DNA of 59,214 nucleotides from Helicobacter monodelphidis. Lineage in GTDB: Bacteria > Campylobacterota > Campylobacteria > Campylobacterales > Helicobacteraceae. The stretch is taken from contig NZ_NHYN01000012.1 of the NCBI RefSeq assembly GCF_003288845.1, positions 1-59,214 on the forward strand, given 5' to 3'. Shown one piece after another: positions 21,982-32,067 of this stretch (its first letter is position 1; every line of letters starts with the position of its first letter). The position numbers and the translations under genes were made by a program. Under the pieces are notes generated by a model, which had not been told where the DNA came from, searched no databases, and worked only from the letters and a program-made list of their open reading frames with translations.

Positions 21982-23943
21982 ATGGCAAAAAAAGAAATAA
22001 AAACAGATTTGTGGGTATATGAGCTTTTAAAGGAGGCTAATATTAATTTAAGTCCGCAAGGCAGTGATATAAAAGAACTTAGCGAAGCTTTAAGCAAAGC
22101 TTCCAAAAAAGGCACAGGAGGAGTGGGTTACCCCGAATATGTGGGCGTGGTGAAAGATTTTGTAATCGTGATTGAGGATAAAGCGAGTGTGGATAAGCAC
22201 ATAAAGCACGATGAAAACAATCTCATCTCACAAAAGCAAAAAGATATAGAAAATTATGCGTTAAATGGGGCTTTATGGTATGCAAAAGCAATTATTAAAC
22301 ATCAAACTTCGTATAAAAAAGTCTTTGCTATTGCTGTGAGTGGTAACGAGAAAAACCATAGAATCACTCCCTTATTTATTGATGATGGTGCATTTATTAG
22401 AGAGCCTTTAGAAGATATAGAAACTTTTATGCTTTTAAATGAGAAAAATATAGACGAGTATTACAAACGAGAAGTTTTAAAAGAAGATTCGCCAAAACAA
22501 AAAACCAAAGAAGAAATAGAAAAAATCGCTACAAGATTACACGAAGATTTAAGAAATTATGGAGCATTAGACGATAGAAATAAGCCTTTGGTTGTCGCTG
22601 GAATCTTATTAGCCCTTGATGAGATGAAAGCACAAAATTTAACATTAGAGCATCTCAATAATGATACAATTAACACCGATGGCAATAAGATTTATGGATT
22701 AATTGAATCCAATCTCAAACGCTCTAGTCTCTCTCCTCAAGTCAAATTTGACAAGGTTCTTACTCAATTTTCTGTCATAAAAGATACAAAAAAGATAAAT
22801 GAAATATGCGAAATAACCGATAAAAAAGGTTCGAAAATTAATTCGACACCCTTAAAATATTATGCAAAAACTATTAAAGAAGAAATTTTTGACTCTATTC
22901 ATATCATAAAAAATTCTTATGATTATTTAGGAGTGTTTTATAGCGAATTTATGCGTTTTAGTGGCGGAGATGGACAGACTTTAGGAATTGTTTTAACCCC
23001 TACGCACATTACAGAATTATTTTGTGATTTAGTTGATTTAAAGATGAGTGACAGAGTGCTTGACCCTTATTGCGGGACAGCTGGATTCTTAATCACCGCT
23101 ATGGATTATATGCTTCTTAAGACAGATAAAGAAGAGCAAAAAAGACAAATCAAACAAAATCAGCTTTTTGGTTTTGAGCTTCAATCTTTTATGTTTGCAG
23201 TCGCTACGACAAATATGGTTTTGCGAGGAGATGGTAAAAGCAATCTAAATGATGAGGATTTTTTAAAACAAAATCCCTTAAAACTCCAAGAAAACTTTAT
23301 GGCAAATGTTGGCTTTATGAATCCTCCTTATTCTCAAGGTAAAATTGACAAAAGACTAACAGAAATCGCATTTACAGAACATTTATGTGATTCTATACTT
23401 AAGGGTGGTAAAGTAGTTGTCATCGTCCCTCAATCAGCAATGACAGGGAAAAGCAAAGAAGAAAAGGCTATTAAAGAAAATATATTAAAACATCACACTT
23501 TAGAAGGGGTTATTACGCTTAATAAAAACACTTTCTATGGGGTAGGGACAAATCCTTGTATCGCAGTTTTTACCACAGGCTTACCCCATGATAAAGAGAA
23601 AATTTGCAAATTTATCAACTTTGAAGATGATGGTTTTGAGGTGCAAAAACATAGGGGCTTGGTAGAGACTATCCACGCAAAAGATAAAAAAGCTCATTTG
23701 CTCGATATTTGGTTTGAGAGAAAAGAAGCCCCTTCAAAATTCTGCGTAAAAACAACCATAGAATCTGATGATGAATGGCTGCATAGTTTTTATTATTTTA
23801 ATGATGAGATTCCAAGTCAAAGTGATTTTGAAAAGACAATGGCTGATTATCTCACATTTGAGTTTAATATGATAACGCATGGCAGAGGGTATTTATTTGG
23901 ACTTGATGAGAATAAAAATAAGATAGAGGCTAAAAATGAGTGA
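21982..23943 (+). CDS. BcgI-like type IIB restriction-modification subunit (nuclease + adenine methyltransferase)
   Basis: The 653-residue product combines an N-terminal PD-(D/E)XK-type nuclease region (GYPEYVGVVKD followed by VIVIEDKAS, with the ExK at about 65–67) and a gamma-class N6-adenine methyltransferase. The methylase has motif I DPYCGTAGFL near residue 361 and motif IV NPPY near 447. This fused layout with a separate specificity gene downstream is that of the BcgI A subunit (637 residues), whose complex cuts on both sides of its site. It overlaps the specificity gene by 8 bases. All key motifs are intact, so the subunit itself is probably functional, but the partner gene is split. 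Confidence 0.85.
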   Translation: MAKKEIKTDLWVYELLKEANINLSPQGSDIKELSEALSKASKKGTGGVGYPEYVGVVKDFVIVIEDKASVDKHIKHDENNLISQKQKDIENYALNGALWYAKAIIKHQTSYKKVFAIAVSGNEKNHRITPLFIDDGAFIREPLEDIETFMLLNEKNIDEYYKREVLKEDSPKQKTKEEIEKIATRLHEDLRNYGALDDRNKPLVVAGILLALDEMKAQNLTLEHLNNDTINTDGNKIYGLIESNLKRSSLSPQVKFDKVLTQFSVIKDTKKINEICEITDKKGSKINSTPLKYYAKTIKEEIFDSIHIIKNSYDYLGVFYSEFMRFSGGDGQTLGIVLTPTHITELFCDLVDLKMSDRVLDPYCGTAGFLITAMDYMLLKTDKEEQKRQIKQNQLFGFELQSFMFAVATTNMVLRGDGKSNLNDEDFLKQNPLKLQENFMANVGFMNPPYSQGKIDKRLTEIAFTEHLCDSILKGGKVVVIVPQSAMTGKSKEEKAIKENILKHHTLEGVITLNKNTFYGVGTNPCIAVFTTGLPHDKEKICKFINFEDDGFEVQKHRGLVETIHAKDKKAHLLDIWFERKEAPSKFCVKTTIESDDEWLHSFYYFNDEIPSQSDFEKTMADYLTFEFNMITHGRGYLFGLDENKNKIEAKNE

Positions 23944-25053
23944 AAAGCTAAGTTTAGATTCTGTAGAATGGGGAGAATTTGTAATAGGGGAGATTTTTGA
24001 GGTTACTTCAACTTTAAGTGGTATTGATAAAAATAAACTAAATGGCAAGGAAGGTAAAATCCCATATATTACAAGAACAGATAAACAAAATGGCATAGAT
24101 AGTTTCATTGATACCCAAGAATTATATACTAGAAATGATGGGAATGTGATTACCATTGGGCTTGATACACAAACAGCTTTTTATCAAAATAACTATTTTT
24201 ATACAGGACAAAATATACAAATTTTGTTTAATAAAAAACTCAATAAATATAATGCTATATTTATTTTACGAAATCTTAAAGTGTTTATGACAAAATTTAA
24301 TTGGGGTGGCAATGGAGCAACTCTTACTAGACTAAAACGAGGCAAAATTTTGCTTCCAAAAACTACCGATAATAAACCCCATTGGGAATTTATGGAAAGC
24401 TATATGAGACAAATCGAGCAAAAACATCTAAAAACTATCATTGCTTATTATCACTCTAAAATTGATTCAGATTCTAATGGGGGGGGTAATAACCTTTGAT
24501 TTAGAAGAATACAAAACATTTTGTGATAATTTTAGAACTCATAACAGCCTCCATACTTGCAAATGGAGAGAATTTTATTTTGATGAAATTTTTACCAAGA
24601 TTCAAAGAGGTAAAAGGCTAATAAAAGCAAATCAAACTCAAGGTAAAACCCCTTATGTCTCATCGAGTGCTATAAATAATGGAATTGATAATTTTATAGA
24701 TAATGATAGTGGGGTTCGTAAATTTCAAAATTGTATTAGCATAGCAAATAGTGGTAGTGTGGGAAGTGCATTTTTTCATCATTATACATTTATTGCAAGC
24801 GACCATATCACAAAGCTTGAAAATAAACAATTCAGTAAGTTATGTTTATCTTTTTCTTGTGCCACTTATTCATCGTTTGAGTGAGAAATATAGCTTTAAT
24901 CGTGAGATAAATGATAAAAGAATTAAAAGAGAGAAACTTATATTACCCATAGATTCTAAAGGTAATCCTGATTGGAAATTTATGGAATCTTATATGAAAA
25001 ATGTAGAAAAACAACAATTAGAAAAGTATTTACAATATTTGAAATTAAAATAA
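23936..25053 (+). pseudogene. BcgI B-like specificity subunit, split at a G8 tract and by a second frameshift
   Basis: Two half-subunits with the HsdS-like pattern are visible. The first runs from VEWGEFVIGEIFEV to the G8 tract at 24479–24486. The second runs from CKWREFYFDEIFTKI to about 25053. At G8 the first half reads GGGNNL-stop; a G7 tract would continue in frame as GGVITFDLEEY. A second break lies near 24840, where removing one T would join FSK to YVYLFLVPLIHRLSEKYS. Each half ends in a matching segment (HWEFMESYMRQIEQ and DWKFMESYMKNVEK), the usual internal repeat of specificity subunits. Without both corrections only the first recognition half is made. Confidence 0.75.
24479..24486 (+). 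repeat. G8 tract in the specificity gene
   Basis: Eight G bases lie at the junction of the two half-subunits. Loss of one G restores the frame into the second half. Poly-G tracts in restriction-modification genes are classical slippage sites in Helicobacter and Campylobacter. Confidence 0.8.
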
Positions 25054-25538: not shown

Positions 25539-25958
25539 ATGAGTGCAAAAAGTGTAAGGCAATTAGCTTTAGAGGAATTTCGCAACAATCAAGATAGCTT
25601 TTGCATTATCGATATTCGTGGGAAACAAGCCTTTCACGCAACACATTTACGAGATTCTATCAATCTGCAGACTTTGGAGGAGATTTTGGATTTTCTATGC
25701 TCTTCGCAAGTTACAAAACCACTTTTACTTATCTGCTTTAGTAGTGCAAAAGCTAAACAAATAGCTTTAAAACTTACAAAATCTCTTTCAAATATATCCG
25801 CAACAATCTATCAGGGAAGTGTGTATTATCTCAATGCGGGGATTATGGAGGTTGCTGATAACGGGATTCCTATCACAGAATCACAAGCAAATCCTTACTC
25901 AAACACCATTACTATGGGGGGGGGGGGCGACTACCTCCTTTGGTCGCCCATACCATAG
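25539..25958 (+). CDS. Rhodanese-domain protein, potential N-terminal part of a rhodanese–DndC fusion
   Basis: Residues 1 to about 110 form a rhodanese-like domain: SFCIIDIRGKQAFHATHL, then the active-site Cys in LLLICFSSAKAK, then SATIYQGSVYYLNAGIM. Rhodaneses carry a persulfide and hand sulfur to acceptors. In the present sequence the frame runs through the G12 tract and ends 30 bases later as GGGGDYLLWSPIP. With G13 or G10 it continues GGGGRLPPLVAHTIEDIKSK into the DndC frame with no intervening stop. I infer a sulfur-donating domain for DNA phosphorothioation that is switched on and off by slippage. As it stands, the domain ends before DndC. Confidence 0.75.
   Translation: MSAKSVRQLALEEFRNNQDSFCIIDIRGKQAFHATHLRDSINLQTLEEILDFLCSSQVTKPLLLICFSSAKAKQIALKLTKSLSNISATIYQGSVYYLNAGIMEVADNGIPITESQANPYSNTITMGGGGDYLLWSPIP
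25916..25927 (+). repeat. G12 tract between rhodanese and DndC frames
   Basis: Twelve G bases, the longest homopolymer I noticed in the window. The upstream frame is 0 and the DndC frame is 2 (modulo 3), so +1 or -2 bases fuses them. At G11 the rhodanese frame instead ends after GATTSFGRPYHRGY. Confidence 0.9.
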
Positions 25959-27259
25959 AGGATATTAAGTCTAAATATCTCTCATCAAAAAGAGCTTTTG
26001 TCGTCGCCTTTAGTGGTGGGAAAGATTCGACTTGTGTTTTACAGCTCGTCTATGAAATGCTTGTATCCTTGCCACAAGAGCAGAGACGACCGACATTTGC
26101 CATAGCCTCAAATACACTTGTAGAAGCTCCTCATATAGAGAGATTCCTGCAATCAGTCATCACTTCAATCAACAAACACGCAAGAGAAAATGGGATTCCA
26201 TTTGAGGTCATAGAAGTCGCACCAGAATCTAAAGATGAATTTTGGGTAAATCTCATCGGCAAAGGCTATCCAAGCCCGACAAGGACATTTCGCTGGTGCA
26301 CCGATAGATTGAAAATCACACCGACAAAATCAACAATTGCAAATATCACTCACAAGTTTGGAAGCGTGTTATTATGTCTTGGCACAAGAAAGCAAGAATC
26401 CACTAATCGCAAAAAATCTATGGAAAAACGTGTATTAAACGAAGATGGCTATTCACAGCACCATGAATTCCCAAACACTCTCACTTATTCACCGATAGCA
26501 CAATGGAGTACTGATGATGTCTGGGGATATTTGATTGGCAATAAACCGCTATGGGACAAAGACCATAGTGAGCTTTTTGCACTCTACTCTAAGGCAAGTG
26601 GCGATGAATGTCAATTTATCACGGATTTGAGACAAAGTAGCTGTGGCGGGAGTCGCTTTGGGTGCTGGGTTTGCACGGTGGTCAATGAGGATAAATCCCT
26701 ACAAGGCTTTATAGGTAATGGAGAATCTCATCTCAAGCCACTTAATGAGTTTCGCAATTTTATCAAAGATTTAAGGGAGAATCCACAATCAAGGGCAGAT
26801 TATAAGCGAGATGGCAGGGCTGTATATAAAGTCGGTGGGCTTGGACCGTTTTTAAGCTCAACACGAATTGAGATTCTACATAGGCTTTTGGAAGCTGAAA
26901 AGGATTTTAAAAACAATGGTGGAGATAATTTAATTTCAGATTCTCAAATCTTGGCTATTCAAGAAGAATGGGATAAAGATTTTGACTTTAATGATACTGC
27001 AATAAACCTAGCAAAGGAGTATAACAGAATGGAAAAATACGAAGTAAAAACGCAAAGTAATATTTTGCATAAAGAAATTTTAGAAGAAATCATAGCAAAT
27101 GATAGTGAGAATCTAGGATTAGATTCTCAAAAAGTAGAGAATGTCATTGCAAAAAGTATTGAAATTTTTAATGACAATGGCAAGACAAATGCTAATCGTA
27201 AAATCAAACAAGAAATTGAAAAAATACTTGATGATAAAACGAGCAAATCTCAATTCTAA
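25940..27259 (+). CDS. dndC: DNA phosphorothioation protein DndC
   Basis: DndC is an iron-sulfur, PAPS-reductase-like ATP pyrophosphatase that activates DNA for sulfur insertion into the backbone. The PP-loop SGGKDST lies near residue 25. Cysteines in RWCTDRLKI and in SCGGSRFGCWVC fit the Fe-S cluster ligands. The listed start is a TTG (25940) without a good ribosome site, and the homology begins only about 15 residues later. In the fused G13/G10 state translation would come from the rhodanese ATG. In the present G12 state DndC may be made weakly by re-initiation or not at all. The C-terminal 90 residues are a charged helical extension. DndD follows after 12 bases. Confidence 0.85.
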   Translation: MVAHTIEDIKSKYLSSKRAFVVAFSGGKDSTCVLQLVYEMLVSLPQEQRRPTFAIASNTLVEAPHIERFLQSVITSINKHARENGIPFEVIEVAPESKDEFWVNLIGKGYPSPTRTFRWCTDRLKITPTKSTIANITHKFGSVLLCLGTRKQESTNRKKSMEKRVLNEDGYSQHHEFPNTLTYSPIAQWSTDDVWGYLIGNKPLWDKDHSELFALYSKASGDECQFITDLRQSSCGGSRFGCWVCTVVNEDKSLQGFIGNGESHLKPLNEFRNFIKDLRENPQSRADYKRDGRAVYKVGGLGPFLSSTRIEILHRLLEAEKDFKNNGGDNLISDSQILAIQEEWDKDFDFNDTAINLAKEYNRMEKYEVKTQSNILHKEILEEIIANDSENLGLDSQKVENVIAKSIEIFNDNGKTNANRKIKQEIEKILDDKTSKSQF

Positions 27260-27271
27260 AAGGAATAATCA

Positions 27272-29296
27272 ATGTTTATAGAAAAAATTATAATTTGCAA
27301 TATATTTGCATATTATGACAAGGTTGAGGTAGATTTTATCCATATCCCAAATAAAAATCTCTATTTTATTTATGGCAAAAATGGCTATGGAAAAACAAGC
27401 TTTATCCGCTGTGCAAAGTTACTTTTTCTAGGAAGTGGGCTTTTGGAAGAAAATAATAAGATTCCAGAAATTATTGAGAGATTTGGTAAAAATATCAAGC
27501 TACCATCTCCTTATATATTTATCGAGGGAAGCAAGACAAATTCTTGGAATGGAATCCTCAATAAAACTGCAGTAAGCGAAGAAAAAAGAGAATATTATAT
27601 AGAGTTTCAAGGCAAAATTGACAATAAAGCTTTTTGCCTTAAGCGAAGTTGGAATAAGTCTTTTAAAACAAATGAATTAAATGAGAGTTTAGAATTAGTG
27701 ATTAATAATGAAACATATAAAAATGAAGAGGCTCAAAATGAAGTAAATAAATTTCTACCTCCTAATTTTGTAGAATTCTTTTTCTTTGATGGTGAAGAGA
27801 TTGAGGATATTAGCGATAATTTACGCTCTTCACTTAAAGAAAAAATTAGTGCAATTTTACAAATCACTCCGCTAGAATGTATCATTAAACAAATTGATAA
27901 GATAAAAGATGAATTAAATCAAAGCCAGATTCAAAATCAAGAAGAGAAAAATAGATTTGAAGTAAAGAAAAAAGAGTTAGAATTACATCAAACTAAGCTA
28001 GAAAATCTCAATAACGAAATTACTCAAATTGAAAATATGCTTCAAGAGGAACAAGATAAGAAAAAGTCCAAAGAAAATGAAAAAAGCACACTTATTGCCA
28101 ATCAAAGCGAACGACATAATGAGCTAGAACGACAAAGGGTTAAGCTTGAAGAGGATATTGCTACAACGAGAAACGAGCTTCCTAGCCTCTTACAATCTAT
28201 CGTCTTTACAAGCAATCCGAAGCTTATTACGAATCTAAAAAATGAAATCGATGAGATATACTCTAAAGCAAATAAAAGTGATATTGAGACGCTTAAAAGG
28301 CTTTTACCAGAAATAAAGCATTGTTTCTCTCAAATGCTTGATAGTATTAATGAAATACGAGATTCTAAGGCTTCAAATAAAATTTTAGATTCGCTAGATA
28401 CTTTGCCAGATTCACTGCAACAACGACTCACATATTCAAATTTACCATTCAATATTATTGAAAATATTAAAGATATGCTGATACGACTTGAAAGCAATAA
28501 TGCTAATAATCACATAAAAACAATGCAAAGATTAAAAAGAGATTTAAAAGAGATTAATGAAGAAATAAGGGATTTAAACCTTGATGATAGCACAAAAATT
28601 AAAGAAGATAATCTCAACGATGAAATAAACAAAATAGAAAGCCAGATAAAACAATATCAAGAAAAGTTAGATTCTAAGAAGGAAGGGAGAATGAAATTAA
28701 AAATTGAAGAAGAGAATTTAGAAAAAGATATTCATATTATCGAACAAAGAATTAATACAGAGAGAATTGATAATAAATTAAAAATATTAAAAAAACTAAG
28801 GACATATATAGAATCTTATAAAGATAAGCTAGTTATGCAACTTCGAGAAGATTTGCATACAAAGATTATAGAGAATTATAAGATTCTATTACCTGATGAT
28901 AATATCGCTGATTTAGAGATTAATAATGATTTTGAAATGACTTTAAAAGATAGTTATGGCAATAATATCAATGTGGCAAATCAAAGCAGTGGGCAAAAAC
29001 AGATTCTAGCTATTTCTATCTTTTGGGCATTAAGCAAACTCTCGCAATCCCAAATTCCGCTTATCATCGATACACCATTAAGTAGGATTGATAGGGCAAA
29101 TCGCAAAAGGATTATCCAGCAATATTATGCTAAGGGTGCAGAACAAGTAATTATACTTCCTCACGATGGCGAAATGGGATATGAGGAATATGAGTATTCT
29201 AAAACTTATCTTGCTGGATTATATAAGATAGATAATCCAAGTGATAGACAACACGCGACAATCAAAGAAGTAGCAATAGAAAATATACTTAATTAG
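27272..29296 (+). CDS. dndD: DNA phosphorothioation protein DndD (SMC-like ATPase)
   Basis: The 674-residue protein has a Walker A (YGKNGYGKTS, about residues 33–42), two long coiled-coil arms (about 200–300 and 410–520) around a central hinge-like region, and a C-terminal half with the ABC signature SSGQKQILA and Walker B IPLIIDTPLSRID. This is the DndD layout; DndD is thought to nick or deform DNA during phosphorothioate insertion. It follows dndC by 12 bases with AAAGGA before the ATG and precedes the DndE-like gene by 14. Generic RecN/SbcC-like ATPase is the alternative, but the neighbours fix the call. Confidence 0.87.
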   Translation: MFIEKIIICNIFAYYDKVEVDFIHIPNKNLYFIYGKNGYGKTSFIRCAKLLFLGSGLLEENNKIPEIIERFGKNIKLPSPYIFIEGSKTNSWNGILNKTAVSEEKREYYIEFQGKIDNKAFCLKRSWNKSFKTNELNESLELVINNETYKNEEAQNEVNKFLPPNFVEFFFFDGEEIEDISDNLRSSLKEKISAILQITPLECIIKQIDKIKDELNQSQIQNQEEKNRFEVKKKELELHQTKLENLNNEITQIENMLQEEQDKKKSKENEKSTLIANQSERHNELERQRVKLEEDIATTRNELPSLLQSIVFTSNPKLITNLKNEIDEIYSKANKSDIETLKRLLPEIKHCFSQMLDSINEIRDSKASNKILDSLDTLPDSLQQRLTYSNLPFNIIENIKDMLIRLESNNANNHIKTMQRLKRDLKEINEEIRDLNLDDSTKIKEDNLNDEINKIESQIKQYQEKLDSKKEGRMKLKIEEENLEKDIHIIEQRINTERIDNKLKILKKLRTYIESYKDKLVMQLREDLHTKIIENYKILLPDDNIADLEINNDFEMTLKDSYGNNINVANQSSGQKQILAISIFWALSKLSQSQIPLIIDTPLSRIDRANRKRIIQQYYAKGAEQVIILPHDGEMGYEEYEYSKTYLAGLYKIDNPSDRQHATIKEVAIENILN

Positions 29297-29310: not shown

Positions 29311-30828
29311 ATGGCAGATTTTTATACAAATAAAGCAGAGGAGTATTTGATTCAAAGAATTATTGGCAGAGATGGTTTAGGATTTAGTCCCGATACTTTG
29401 CCTAAATATTTCATACTGCGTCTCGCCCTCTCTCTTGCCCTTAAACTCCCACATCTCCCACTTCATTCACCAGAATGGGAGAGGAAACGATTAGATGCTC
29501 AAAGAGATAAAGAATATCATTTAGAGCAACTCACAGGCAAAGGAAAATCCAAACAAGAAGACTTTGATAGCCTCACACGAAGCATATTCTATATCAACCA
29601 CAAAGATGAACTCAATGACAAAAATATTGATATTTTTTCTCACGATGAAAAATACTTAGAGATTCTCTCCAAGTACATTCATCGCGGTTTGTATGAGATA
29701 CACAATACTTGGAAAAATAATGACTGCTTTTATCAATGGTGTATTGATAATCTCAAACTTGACTTCCCCCCACAATCGCACAAAAATATAGAATCTTCCA
29801 CACAAAATAAGGATTTATTTGAACAAATCAAACAATATTTTTCAAAATTCAGTATTGATGTAGAGCATATCAATACCACACAATCCTATCGTCACGATAT
29901 TTGCCGCATACAGATACTTGATTCTAGTAAAATAGAATCATTTAAAAATAAAGCAAAAAATCTCGAAGATGAACTCGGCGTAGAGAGCGTATTGTTGCAA
30001 TCGTGTAAAGAAAATAATCTCTCCAAAACCTATGATATTCAAGTGGCAAAACCACAAGATAAATGGAGCAAAATCACTAAAGATGACTTTAAACAAGGCA
30101 TAGAATCTCTTCATACTAAGGACTACAAGCTAGGAATCTTCGCAGGATTTGGTATCGATAAAAATCCTTATTGTTTTGATTTGGCTTCAGCCCCTCATCT
30201 CTTTGCCGCAGGGGCAACCGGGAGTGGAAAAACGATTTTATTGCAAAATATCATTATCTCTTTGCTAAAAAATAAAAATCGCATTGATATTATCATCATA
30301 GACCCCAAAAATGGCACAGACTATAAAATTTTTGAATCTCACTTGGAAGAATTTATTATCGATATGCGTCAAGCAAGTAAAAAGCTTGATGAATATATCG
30401 ATGAAATGGAGGAGCGTTACAAGCTACTTGCAGGGCATAATGCAGATGATATAAACGCACTTAATCTTCCTTATCAAGTCATCATCATCGATGAACTAAA
30501 CGACCTTGTGATGAGTGATAAAACGATAAATGACAAACTCACACGACTAGCCCAAAAATCTCGTCAAGCAGGAATCCACCTCATACTTGGCACACAGAGA
30601 CCAGATTCTAAAGTTTTCACAGGAGGCTTGCGGAGCAATATCCCTACTAGAATCGCCCTCAAAGTTTCTAAGGCAAGTGATTCACGAATAATCCTTGATG
30701 AAAATGGTGCAGAAAAGTTACTTGGGCAAGGCGATATGCTTATCAAAACCACAAAGTCAAGTGAGCTTAAACGCGTGTTTGGCGCGAAGTTAGAGGCTAG
30801 TGAGATACAATCTCTCATTGTAAGATAA
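29311..30828 (+). CDS. dndE: DndE-like N-terminal domain fused to FtsK/HerA-type ATPase
   Basis: The first 60 or so residues (LGFSPDTLPKYFILRLALSLAL) resemble the small DndE protein, which binds nicked DNA. The C-terminal part from about residue 270 is an FtsK/SpoIIIE-type motor: Walker A GATGSGKT, Walker B VIIIDELND, the GTQRPDSKVFTGGLRSNIP sensor region and GQGDMLIKT. Free-standing DndE is about 110–130 residues, so this 505-residue form is a fusion. It has the strongest ribosome site in the operon (GGAGGAAAG). A translocase here suggests DNA tracking during modification. I am sure of the motor and moderately sure of the DndE part. Confidence 0.75.
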   Translation: MADFYTNKAEEYLIQRIIGRDGLGFSPDTLPKYFILRLALSLALKLPHLPLHSPEWERKRLDAQRDKEYHLEQLTGKGKSKQEDFDSLTRSIFYINHKDELNDKNIDIFSHDEKYLEILSKYIHRGLYEIHNTWKNNDCFYQWCIDNLKLDFPPQSHKNIESSTQNKDLFEQIKQYFSKFSIDVEHINTTQSYRHDICRIQILDSSKIESFKNKAKNLEDELGVESVLLQSCKENNLSKTYDIQVAKPQDKWSKITKDDFKQGIESLHTKDYKLGIFAGFGIDKNPYCFDLASAPHLFAAGATGSGKTILLQNIIISLLKNKNRIDIIIIDPKNGTDYKIFESHLEEFIIDMRQASKKLDEYIDEMEERYKLLAGHNADDINALNLPYQVIIIDELNDLVMSDKTINDKLTRLAQKSRQAGIHLILGTQRPDSKVFTGGLRSNIPTRIALKVSKASDSRIILDENGAEKLLGQGDMLIKTTKSSELKRVFGAKLEASEIQSLIVR

Positions 30829-31104
30829 ATGATTTTTTTTACAACCTACCAACTTTATGATATGGATTGTGTTGTTTGAAAATACTTAGACAATAGCACC
30901 ACATATCTAAGATTCTTTATTTTACTTAATCACACTATCGCCCTTTTAGCGCATTTTCACATCATTTATGCTAAAATCTTGGTTTTTTATAGCAATATTC
31001 ACAGATTGTCATAGCTTTTTGGCAAAGTCTCACAACATAGATAATTTATAGAATCTTAACTTATATAAAACACAACACTTGGCTTGATGGTTTTGGAGGT
31101 TATT

Positions 31105-32067
31105 ATGCAGCATTCACATAAAAAGCTTACATTTTTGGCACTTGCACAAGCAGTGCTAGAGGAGAGCAAAATCCCGCTTAATGCAGGGCAAATATGGGAG
31201 GAGGCACAAGCAAAAGGCTTGGATAAGGAACTAGGGAGTATTGGCAAAACACCTAGACGAACACTTGAGGCGAGACTCTACACAGACATTAAAAGCGAAG
31301 ATTCTCCCTTCATATTTGCCTCAAAGAAGCCCACGACTTTATGGCTCAAATCTCGCGAAAGTGAGCTAGATAAGCCACATATAGAGGAGCAGATTTTAGA
31401 GAGTGAAAAAGTTTCAATGCAAAAAAGTAAATTTAAAGAACGCGATTTGCACCCATTGCTTGTGAAGTATTTGAGTGAAAATGAGCATTTCAGACTCTAT
31501 TGCAAGACAATCCGCCACGAAACAAGCAAGAAATCTCAAAGTGGGCAGGATAAATGGAATTACCCTGACATTGTTGGGATTCACTTCGCATTTAGTGATG
31601 ATTATGAGAGCGAGACTTTGGAATTACTTGATGCTATCGGCTATTCGAACTATAAACTTTGCTCTTTTGAGCTAAAAATTGCTTTAAATTTTAGCAACCT
31701 CAAAGAATCTTATTTCCAAGCCGTCTCTAATTCAAGTTGGGCGAATGAGGGATATTTGGTGGTATTTGAGGAGATTGATGATGAGATTCTCACTGAATTA
31801 AGGCGGCTAAATACGAGCTTTGGGATTGGGGTGATTCAGCTGACAAGTGATATTGTAAGCTCAAAAATCCTCTTATCCTCACAAAGTAGGGATATAGATA
31901 GTGAAACACTCAATATGCTTGTGAGTAAGAATCCTAATTTTAGGGACTTTGTGGATTCTGTGGTAAAAGATATTGACATTAGAGATGAAAAGCGAATCGT
32001 CAAGGATAGCTATGATGAGATTCTCAACGACAAAGAGTTAGAAAAATATTTGAAAGATAAAAAATAG
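31105..32067 (+). CDS. hrgA: HrgA-like HARE-HTH / PD-(D/E)XK nuclease
   Basis: The 320-residue protein starts with a HARE-HTH domain (about residues 4–75, KKLTFLALAQAVLEES through GKTPRRTLEARLYTDI), which I recognise from H. pylori HrgA. A C-terminal nuclease-like domain has a PD...ExK signature: YPDIVGI near 154 and FELKIAL at 189–191. HARE-HTH domains are predicted readers of modified DNA. I chose the ATG at 31105 with GGAGG 6 bases upstream; upstream TTG/ATG codons in frame lack spacing. It lies 276 bases after the Dnd genes, without other genes between. I infer a restriction partner for the Dnd modification, but it may be independent. Confidence 0.75.
   Translation: MQHSHKKLTFLALAQAVLEESKIPLNAGQIWEEAQAKGLDKELGSIGKTPRRTLEARLYTDIKSEDSPFIFASKKPTTLWLKSRESELDKPHIEEQILESEKVSMQKSKFKERDLHPLLVKYLSENEHFRLYCKTIRHETSKKSQSGQDKWNYPDIVGIHFAFSDDYESETLELLDAIGYSNYKLCSFELKIALNFSNLKESYFQAVSNSSWANEGYLVVFEEIDDEILTELRRLNTSFGIGVIQLTSDIVSSKILLSSQSRDIDSETLNMLVSKNPNFRDFVDSVVKDIDIRDEKRIVKDSYDEILNDKELEKYLKDKK

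Follow-up and report, generated by a model that had tools for sequence, protein, structure and literature searches.

A gene of Helicobacter monodelphidis joins an N-terminal rhodanese domain to the PP-loop sulfurtransferase DndC and carries a run of twelve G between the two parts. We propose, with good though not complete confidence, that slipped-strand mispairing at this run turns DNA phosphorothioation ON and OFF and that the assembly analysed here caught it in the OFF position, with the rhodanese acting as an in-cis carrier of sulfur. Comparison of related genomes gives strong support to the switch, which has not been observed in cells; variation of tract length within a strain has not been shown.

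The rhodanese-DndC gene and its G tract

The window, that is the whole stretch of 59,214 nucleotides that was analysed, is contig 32 of a draft assembly (1.99 Mb, 131 contigs), and the named relatives of its DndC belong to Helicobacter and Campylobacter. The rhodanese ORF starts at ATG 25539, comprises 139 aa as assembled and matches Pfam PF00581 with 29.3 bits (cut-off 22.2). Its putative catalytic cysteine sits in the segment KPLLLICFSS and aligns with the cysteine of HP1203 (2k0z). As stated in a preliminary description of this DNA, the ORF runs directly into a G12 tract, the exact position of which we confirmed; the tract begins with the last letter of an ATG codon (25914-25916) that is in frame with the rhodanese. 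An open DndC frame extends from 25862 to its stop codon at 27257-27259 and meets the family criterion, with a TIGR03183 match of 358.3 bits against a cut-off of 290.4, and the DndC model of PADLOC gives 398 bits for the window protein. The PP-loop SGGKDS and the cysteine motifs FRWCT and SCGxxRFGCWxC are present in the window and almost unchanged across the alignment.

Table 1. Features of the fusion gene and its operon (window coordinates)
Feature	Position	Strand	Basis
Rhodanese domain, N-terminal fusion part, up to the slip tract	25539..25913	+	PF00581
G12 slip tract in the linker	25916..25927	+	G count in sequence; OFF length
Stop closing the rhodanese frame when the tract is G12	25956..25958	+	ORF/frame analysis
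DndC (PP-loop sulfurtransferase), C-terminal fusion part	25928..27259	+	TIGR03183, PADLOC
dndD homologue, SMC-like/ABC ATPase, operon gene 2	27272..29296	+	TIGR03185, PADLOC
DndE-like N-terminal domain with FtsK/HerA ATPase, operon gene 3	29311..30828	+	FtsK_SpoIIIE, pairwise matches

Reading the frames directly, we observed that tract lengths of 7, 10, 13 and 16 fuse rhodanese and DndC without a stop between them, yielding a joined ORF of 571 aa at length 7 and one further residue for every three G. The preliminary description had named 10 and 13 as joining lengths and 12 as a separating one, and this holds, with 7 and 16 to be added to the former; the G12 of the window assembly is out of frame. 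The other facts given in that description were borne out as well. The locus has the hallmark of a phase-variable gene, namely a pure in-frame repeat whose length modulo 3 sets the full-length ORF. Between the tract and the PP-loop, the sole candidate start for a separate DndC in the window is TTG 25940, at which no Shine-Dalgarno match of at least four bases was found, and the earlier remark that DndC lacks a convincing start was a fair one. In two relatives, L013 and L015, the DndC frame contains no ATG, GTG or TTG from the tract to the PP-loop, and at the loop-type loci the starts that follow the tract lie mostly within the rhodanese or the linker, nearly all without a Shine-Dalgarno sequence. 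Because start codons are absent or lack a Shine-Dalgarno sequence, out-of-frame alleles should be expected to produce little or no working DndC, TTG 25940 leaving a weak chance of a separate DndC in the window genome.

Fusion and tract among relatives

We searched for dndC in a sample of 121 Helicobacteraceae genomes, with one genome per species. The gene is present in 22 of them (21 above the cut-off and one broken copy), besides five weak partial matches, and in all 22 genomes a rhodanese domain precedes DndC. The same arrangement was found in Campylobacter troglodytis (L012) and, uninterrupted and tract-free, in two loci of another Campylobacterales family (L131 and L132) that were identified via the third operon gene, giving 25 fused loci in total. 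A pure G or C tract of length 8-16 occurs in 19 of the 25 loci, or 19 of 23 when L131 and L132 are left out; the tract is kept in relatives and varies in length and frame. The six tract-free loci (L011, L020, L029, L034, L131 and L132) are all single uninterrupted in-frame fusions. Homologues with a continuous rhodanese-DndC frame, which the preliminary description had proposed to search for, thus exist, and relatives that always keep two genes with a real dndC start, which it had named as a refutation, are ruled out by these six fusions and the 19 tract-bearing ones. Its reading of the gene as a phase-variable fusion gains support from the same comparison, the 19 tract loci differing in length and frame.

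The tract lies in the linker in the window, L012, L013, L014, L015 and L035, and in 13 loci it is located inside the rhodanese, just ahead of the Cys-bearing strand, where G tracts encode consecutive Gly residues and C tracts consecutive Pro residues. Two fusion genes have decayed, one by an in-frame stop (L014) and one by a second frameshift (L037). Among the 17 tract-bearing loci with an intact fusion gene, five are in frame (L018 with C14, L021 with C13, L022 with C12, L026 with C14 and L030 with C14) and 12, including the window, are out of frame; each of the 12 gives one stop-free ORF of 562-706 aa at another tract length. Five in 17 is close to the one third expected from free slippage. 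A difference in length between related genomes was observed for L026 (C14, in frame; genome G045) and L033 (C13, out of frame; genome G044), which share 97.6% identity over 2990 nt. Most of dndD has been lost from G044 as well, which makes the pair suggestive but not clean evidence of a length change. Homopolymer lengths taken from draft assemblies may also be miscounted.

We compared the fusion with its flanks. Within 680 nt around the DndC start, a tract of at least eight G or C was present in 18 of the 22 loci tested (19 of 23 once L010 is added), whereas the flanking bases contained 15 tracts in 406,519, corresponding to 0.025 expected per locus. The nominal P of this enrichment is about 1e-25, with the kinship of the loci ignored, and by this estimate the presence of the tract at the fusion is far beyond chance. 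Both rhodanese and tract are absent from 14 above-cut-off DndC loci in other families of the order, and in these 14 unfused proteins a few dozen residues precede the PP-loop. Outside Campylobacterales, where only plasmid records were covered, none of 2,335 records with a DndC-like match spans 80% of the fusion.

Selection was observed on either side of the tract. In tract-free or in-frame pairs, the rhodanese together with the linker had a dN/dS of 0.22-0.29, and DndC one of 0.09-0.12; in out-of-frame pairs, the values were 0.15-0.38 before and 0.07-0.11 after the tract, with synonymous sites near saturation in the most distant pairs. These ratios show strong purifying selection on the DndC frame, in comparisons of out-of-frame loci too, and genes that are permanently off would not be predicted to show such values. 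In the tree, the fused DndC proteins form one clade (support 100/100), within which loop-G, loop-C, linker-G and linker-C tracts and tract-free members are intermixed. The position of the long-branched pair L021/L030 is unsure, and tracts were counted only as four kinds of site and base. Because tract kinds and tract-free members are mixed within a single clade, the fusion probably arose once and the tracts were probably gained, moved or lost several times, the switch not being peculiar to the window genome. That a tract keeps reappearing at different sites throughout a bacterial family suggests that the ability to switch is itself what is selected. Since the fusion is accompanied by a G or C run in nearly all relatives, often at another site than here, the most likely picture, as far as genome comparison can tell, is that members of this group turn DNA sulfur marking ON and OFF at random.

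Operon context and sulfur supply

Judging from gene order and family matches, the fusion gene is the first of a conserved compact three-gene operon encoding rhodanese-DndC, DndD and DndE-FtsK, which is predicted to serve DNA phosphorothioation and occurs in Helicobacteraceae and some other Campylobacterales. The second gene matches TIGR03185 with 191.6 bits, under the cut-off of 245.85, and PADLOC assigns it 577 bits for PbeC and 215.5 bits for DndD; 21 of the 22 loci examined for it contain a dndD homologue. The third gene, found in all 22 genomes with dndC, reaches 98.9 bits with FtsK_SpoIIIE and has the fold of the E. coli FtsK motor. In pairwise comparison, its N-terminal part matches the small gene that follows dndD in ordinary dnd loci. 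The protein does not reach the DndE family model TIGR03184, and its N-terminus is of low confidence in the AlphaFold model; the predicted DndE-like identity rests on the pairwise matches and on the published DndE-FtsK architecture (PMC10853773). The order expected of an operon, DndC followed by a dndD homologue and DndE-like/FtsK, is met, with DndE by pairwise similarity only. Beyond the three genes, no other gene is conserved in the flanks examined. The operon lacks dndA, DndB (TIGR03233) had no match in the 22 genomes, and TIGR03238, used to find a DndFGH partner, had no match in the 22 genomes in a search without positive control.

The surroundings of the operon yielded several separate observations. 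Directly after it, at 31084-32067, a gene encodes a HARE-HTH protein (PF05066, 54.6 bits) that is possibly restriction-related; it was discarded as a conserved restriction partner, not being among the conserved neighbours. On the other side, an HsdS-like Type I/IIG specificity gene (23936-25053) adjoins an N6 methylase (21982-23943) and is split into three overlapping frames with a G run near 24479 at the first break; it is possibly a further phase-variable gene or a specificity gene that has decayed. The genome as a whole contains about 17 G tracts of at least 10, with four and five such tracts on contigs C40 (19604-27082) and C44 (26458-38350), within 8-12 kb. In G044 (L097) and G062 (L134), dndD breaks off after about 57 residues and is replaced in both genomes by the same pair of ORFs, one N6-methylase-like (440 aa) and one of 236 aa; the replacing stretches share 94.8% identity over 2.3 kb. 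In G097 (L080/L109), the DndE-FtsK gene contains an in-frame TAG and, near its end, a C9 tract that is perhaps a second switch of the operon. Finally, the close relatives L095, L097 and L098 have one extra G12-14 tract on each side of the operon, roughly 1.4 kb ahead of dndC and 6.2 kb behind it, with lengths that differ among the three.

We examined the rhodanese part in a structure predicted for L029, a tract-free relative (mean pLDDT 81.5); in this model, a rhodanese domain precedes a PAPS-reductase-like PP-loop domain. The rhodanese superimposes on GlpE with a Z of 12.8 (rmsd 2.5, 105 residues) and on HP1203 with a Z of 12.7; together with the PF00581 match and the Cys alignment, this satisfies the two marks of a rhodanese, fold and active-site Cys. 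The Cys is kept in every relative with an alignable rhodanese, including the distant L131 and L132, where for loci with the tract inside the rhodanese, missed by a Cys pattern search, the alignment was used. The DxR motif is kept as well. The active-site loop begins with CFSS or CFSA and is not of the classical CxxxxR form, and the rhodanese evolves faster than DndC.

Sulfur is known to reach DndC from DndA or IscS (PMC9239217, PMC10853773). The preliminary description had suggested that the rhodanese supplies sulfur in cis, replacing DndA or helping it. Because a desulfurase-like protein (PF00266, about 390 aa) is encoded outside the operon in all 22 genomes, a full replacement of DndA was rejected as unlikely, whereas the helping role, recast as a relay, fits better. 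The most economical reading, drawn by analogy, is a persulfide relay from desulfurase via the rhodanese Cys and DndC to DNA. As the loop CFSS is not the classical CxxxxR, this relay remains an inference, and so does the sulfur transfer activity itself.

In the mechanism that we propose, the functional product would be a single protein with an N-terminal rhodanese and DndC. The pure G or C tract would change its length by slipped-strand mispairing during replication, and the fusion protein would be made only at the right length modulo 3. When the gene is ON, a housekeeping cysteine desulfurase would load the rhodanese cysteine with a persulfide, to be handed on to the DndC cysteines, and DndC would insert the sulfur into DNA with DndD and DndE-FtsK; the combination of rhodanese and DndC would be much like the PP-loop enzyme and rhodanese of ThiI. 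With G12, translation would leave the frame and end at 25956-25958, giving no DndC and presumably no phosphorothioate (OFF). That OFF cells lack phosphorothioate is inferred, as is reversible switching in culture. Extending the reading to the family, we lean somewhat toward a phosphorothioate phasevarion in Helicobacteraceae, in which DNA phosphorothioation itself is an epigenetic state inherited as ON or OFF, with one fusion origin, shifting tracts, marked and unmarked cells and no adjacent DndFGH. If true, marked and unmarked cells would differ in phage defence and perhaps in gene expression, with no adjacent DndFGH partner to punish loss of the mark; a bet-hedging benefit in defence or epigenetic state is inferred.

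Alternative explanations and known systems

The start at TTG 25940 underlies a reading as two separate genes, with DndC coupled to the overlapping rhodanese stop and the G tract serving as an inert linker. A DndC made from this codon would have ordinary length, and the rhodanese stop does overlap its start. However, the codon lacks a Shine-Dalgarno sequence, L013 and L015 offer no start whatever, 13 loci have the tract inside the rhodanese and the six tract-free relatives are continuous fusions, all of which makes separate genes very improbable to us. We give hardly any credence to an assembly artefact or a dying gene. The draft state of the assembly with its 131 contigs and the decay seen in a few relatives (G041, G050, dndD of G044 and a remnant in G062) would be in keeping with it, but tracts recur in independent assemblies, including the single-contig G044, G065, G097 and G103, and open frames under purifying selection lie on either side of the tract.

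Long homopolymers can cause slippage in transcription or translation. Slippage of RNA polymerase or the ribosome would yield a fixed fraction of fusion protein in every cell, and the tract would then regulate level rather than act as a heritable switch; the persistence of selection although 12 of 17 assemblies are out of frame would agree with this. We nevertheless consider it a rather poor explanation, given that lengths and frames vary freely among loci with about a third in frame, as DNA slippage predicts, that G and C tracts are both in use at different sites, and that such tracts are the usual phase-variation repeat of the group (PMC4965091, PMC6321876). It is also conceivable that the switch is real and the rhodanese carries no sulfur, having a structural or regulatory role (docking or dimerisation, for example) while the desulfurase charges DndC directly. 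Ordinary DndC works without a rhodanese, rhodanese-like domains can be non-catalytic, and the loop is atypical and the domain evolves faster than DndC. Against this stand the conservation of the Cys in all alignable loci including L131 and L132, the retained DxR motif and GlpE-like fold, and the precedent of ThiI for a rhodanese plus PP-loop (PMC5372739). A rhodanese without sulfur carriage thus seems unlikely, though it keeps some weight, and we retain the slipped-strand switch with a sulfur-carrying rhodanese as the preferred reading.

Phase variation of base methylation and of modification genes is well known. A poly-G frame switch has also been reported (PMC12003011), as has a subset of Dnd systems with DndE fused to HerA/FtsK beside a DndD-related ATPase (PMC10853773, Rakesh et al. 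2024), and Dnd systems with a desulfurase supplied from elsewhere in the genome are known (PMC10853773). The main text of this 2024 survey (PMC10853773) makes no mention of rhodanese, Helicobacter or phase. In the literature searched, which excluded subscription papers and supplementary tables, we found nothing joining dndC, rhodanese and phosphorothioation, and no report of slip-tract (phase-variable) control of DNA phosphorothioation. What appears new is the domain fusion and the target of phase variation, neither of which we found described; DndE-FtsK and phase-variable modification genes are known. Such a switch would mean that phosphorothioate heterogeneity has a genetic source as well, and would allow the costs and benefits of the sulfur mark to be tested in isogenic ON and OFF cells. 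The fusion would moreover provide a natural one-chain system for studying the sulfur route to DndC, with the rhodanese as a concrete candidate step that can be mutated.

Like the surveyed Dnd systems (PMC10853773), the locus combines a DndC above the family cut-off with a DndD-type ATPase and DndE-FtsK, the desulfurase coming from elsewhere; unlike them, it has a rhodanese fused to DndC and a slip tract in the gene, and no dndA or dndB. The rhodanese shares its fold with GlpE (1gmx) and HP1203 (2k0z) and its Cys position with HP1203, in which the loop reads CRAG instead of the CFSS or CFSA found here, where the domain is fused to DndC. ThiI, the 4-thiouridine synthetase of E. coli, likewise has a PP-loop enzyme and a rhodanese on one chain, with a C-terminal rhodanese whose cysteine carries the persulfide (PMC5372739); here, the rhodanese is N-terminal, the PP-loop is of the DndC type, the target would be DNA rather than tRNA and the mechanism is inferred. 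With the phasevarions formed by phase-variable restriction-modification genes of Helicobacter and Campylobacter (PMC3230613), the locus shares a homopolymeric in-frame G or C tract, a full protein in one of three length classes and a DNA modification enzyme as the target, whereas the predicted mark is a sulfur in the backbone instead of a methylated base.
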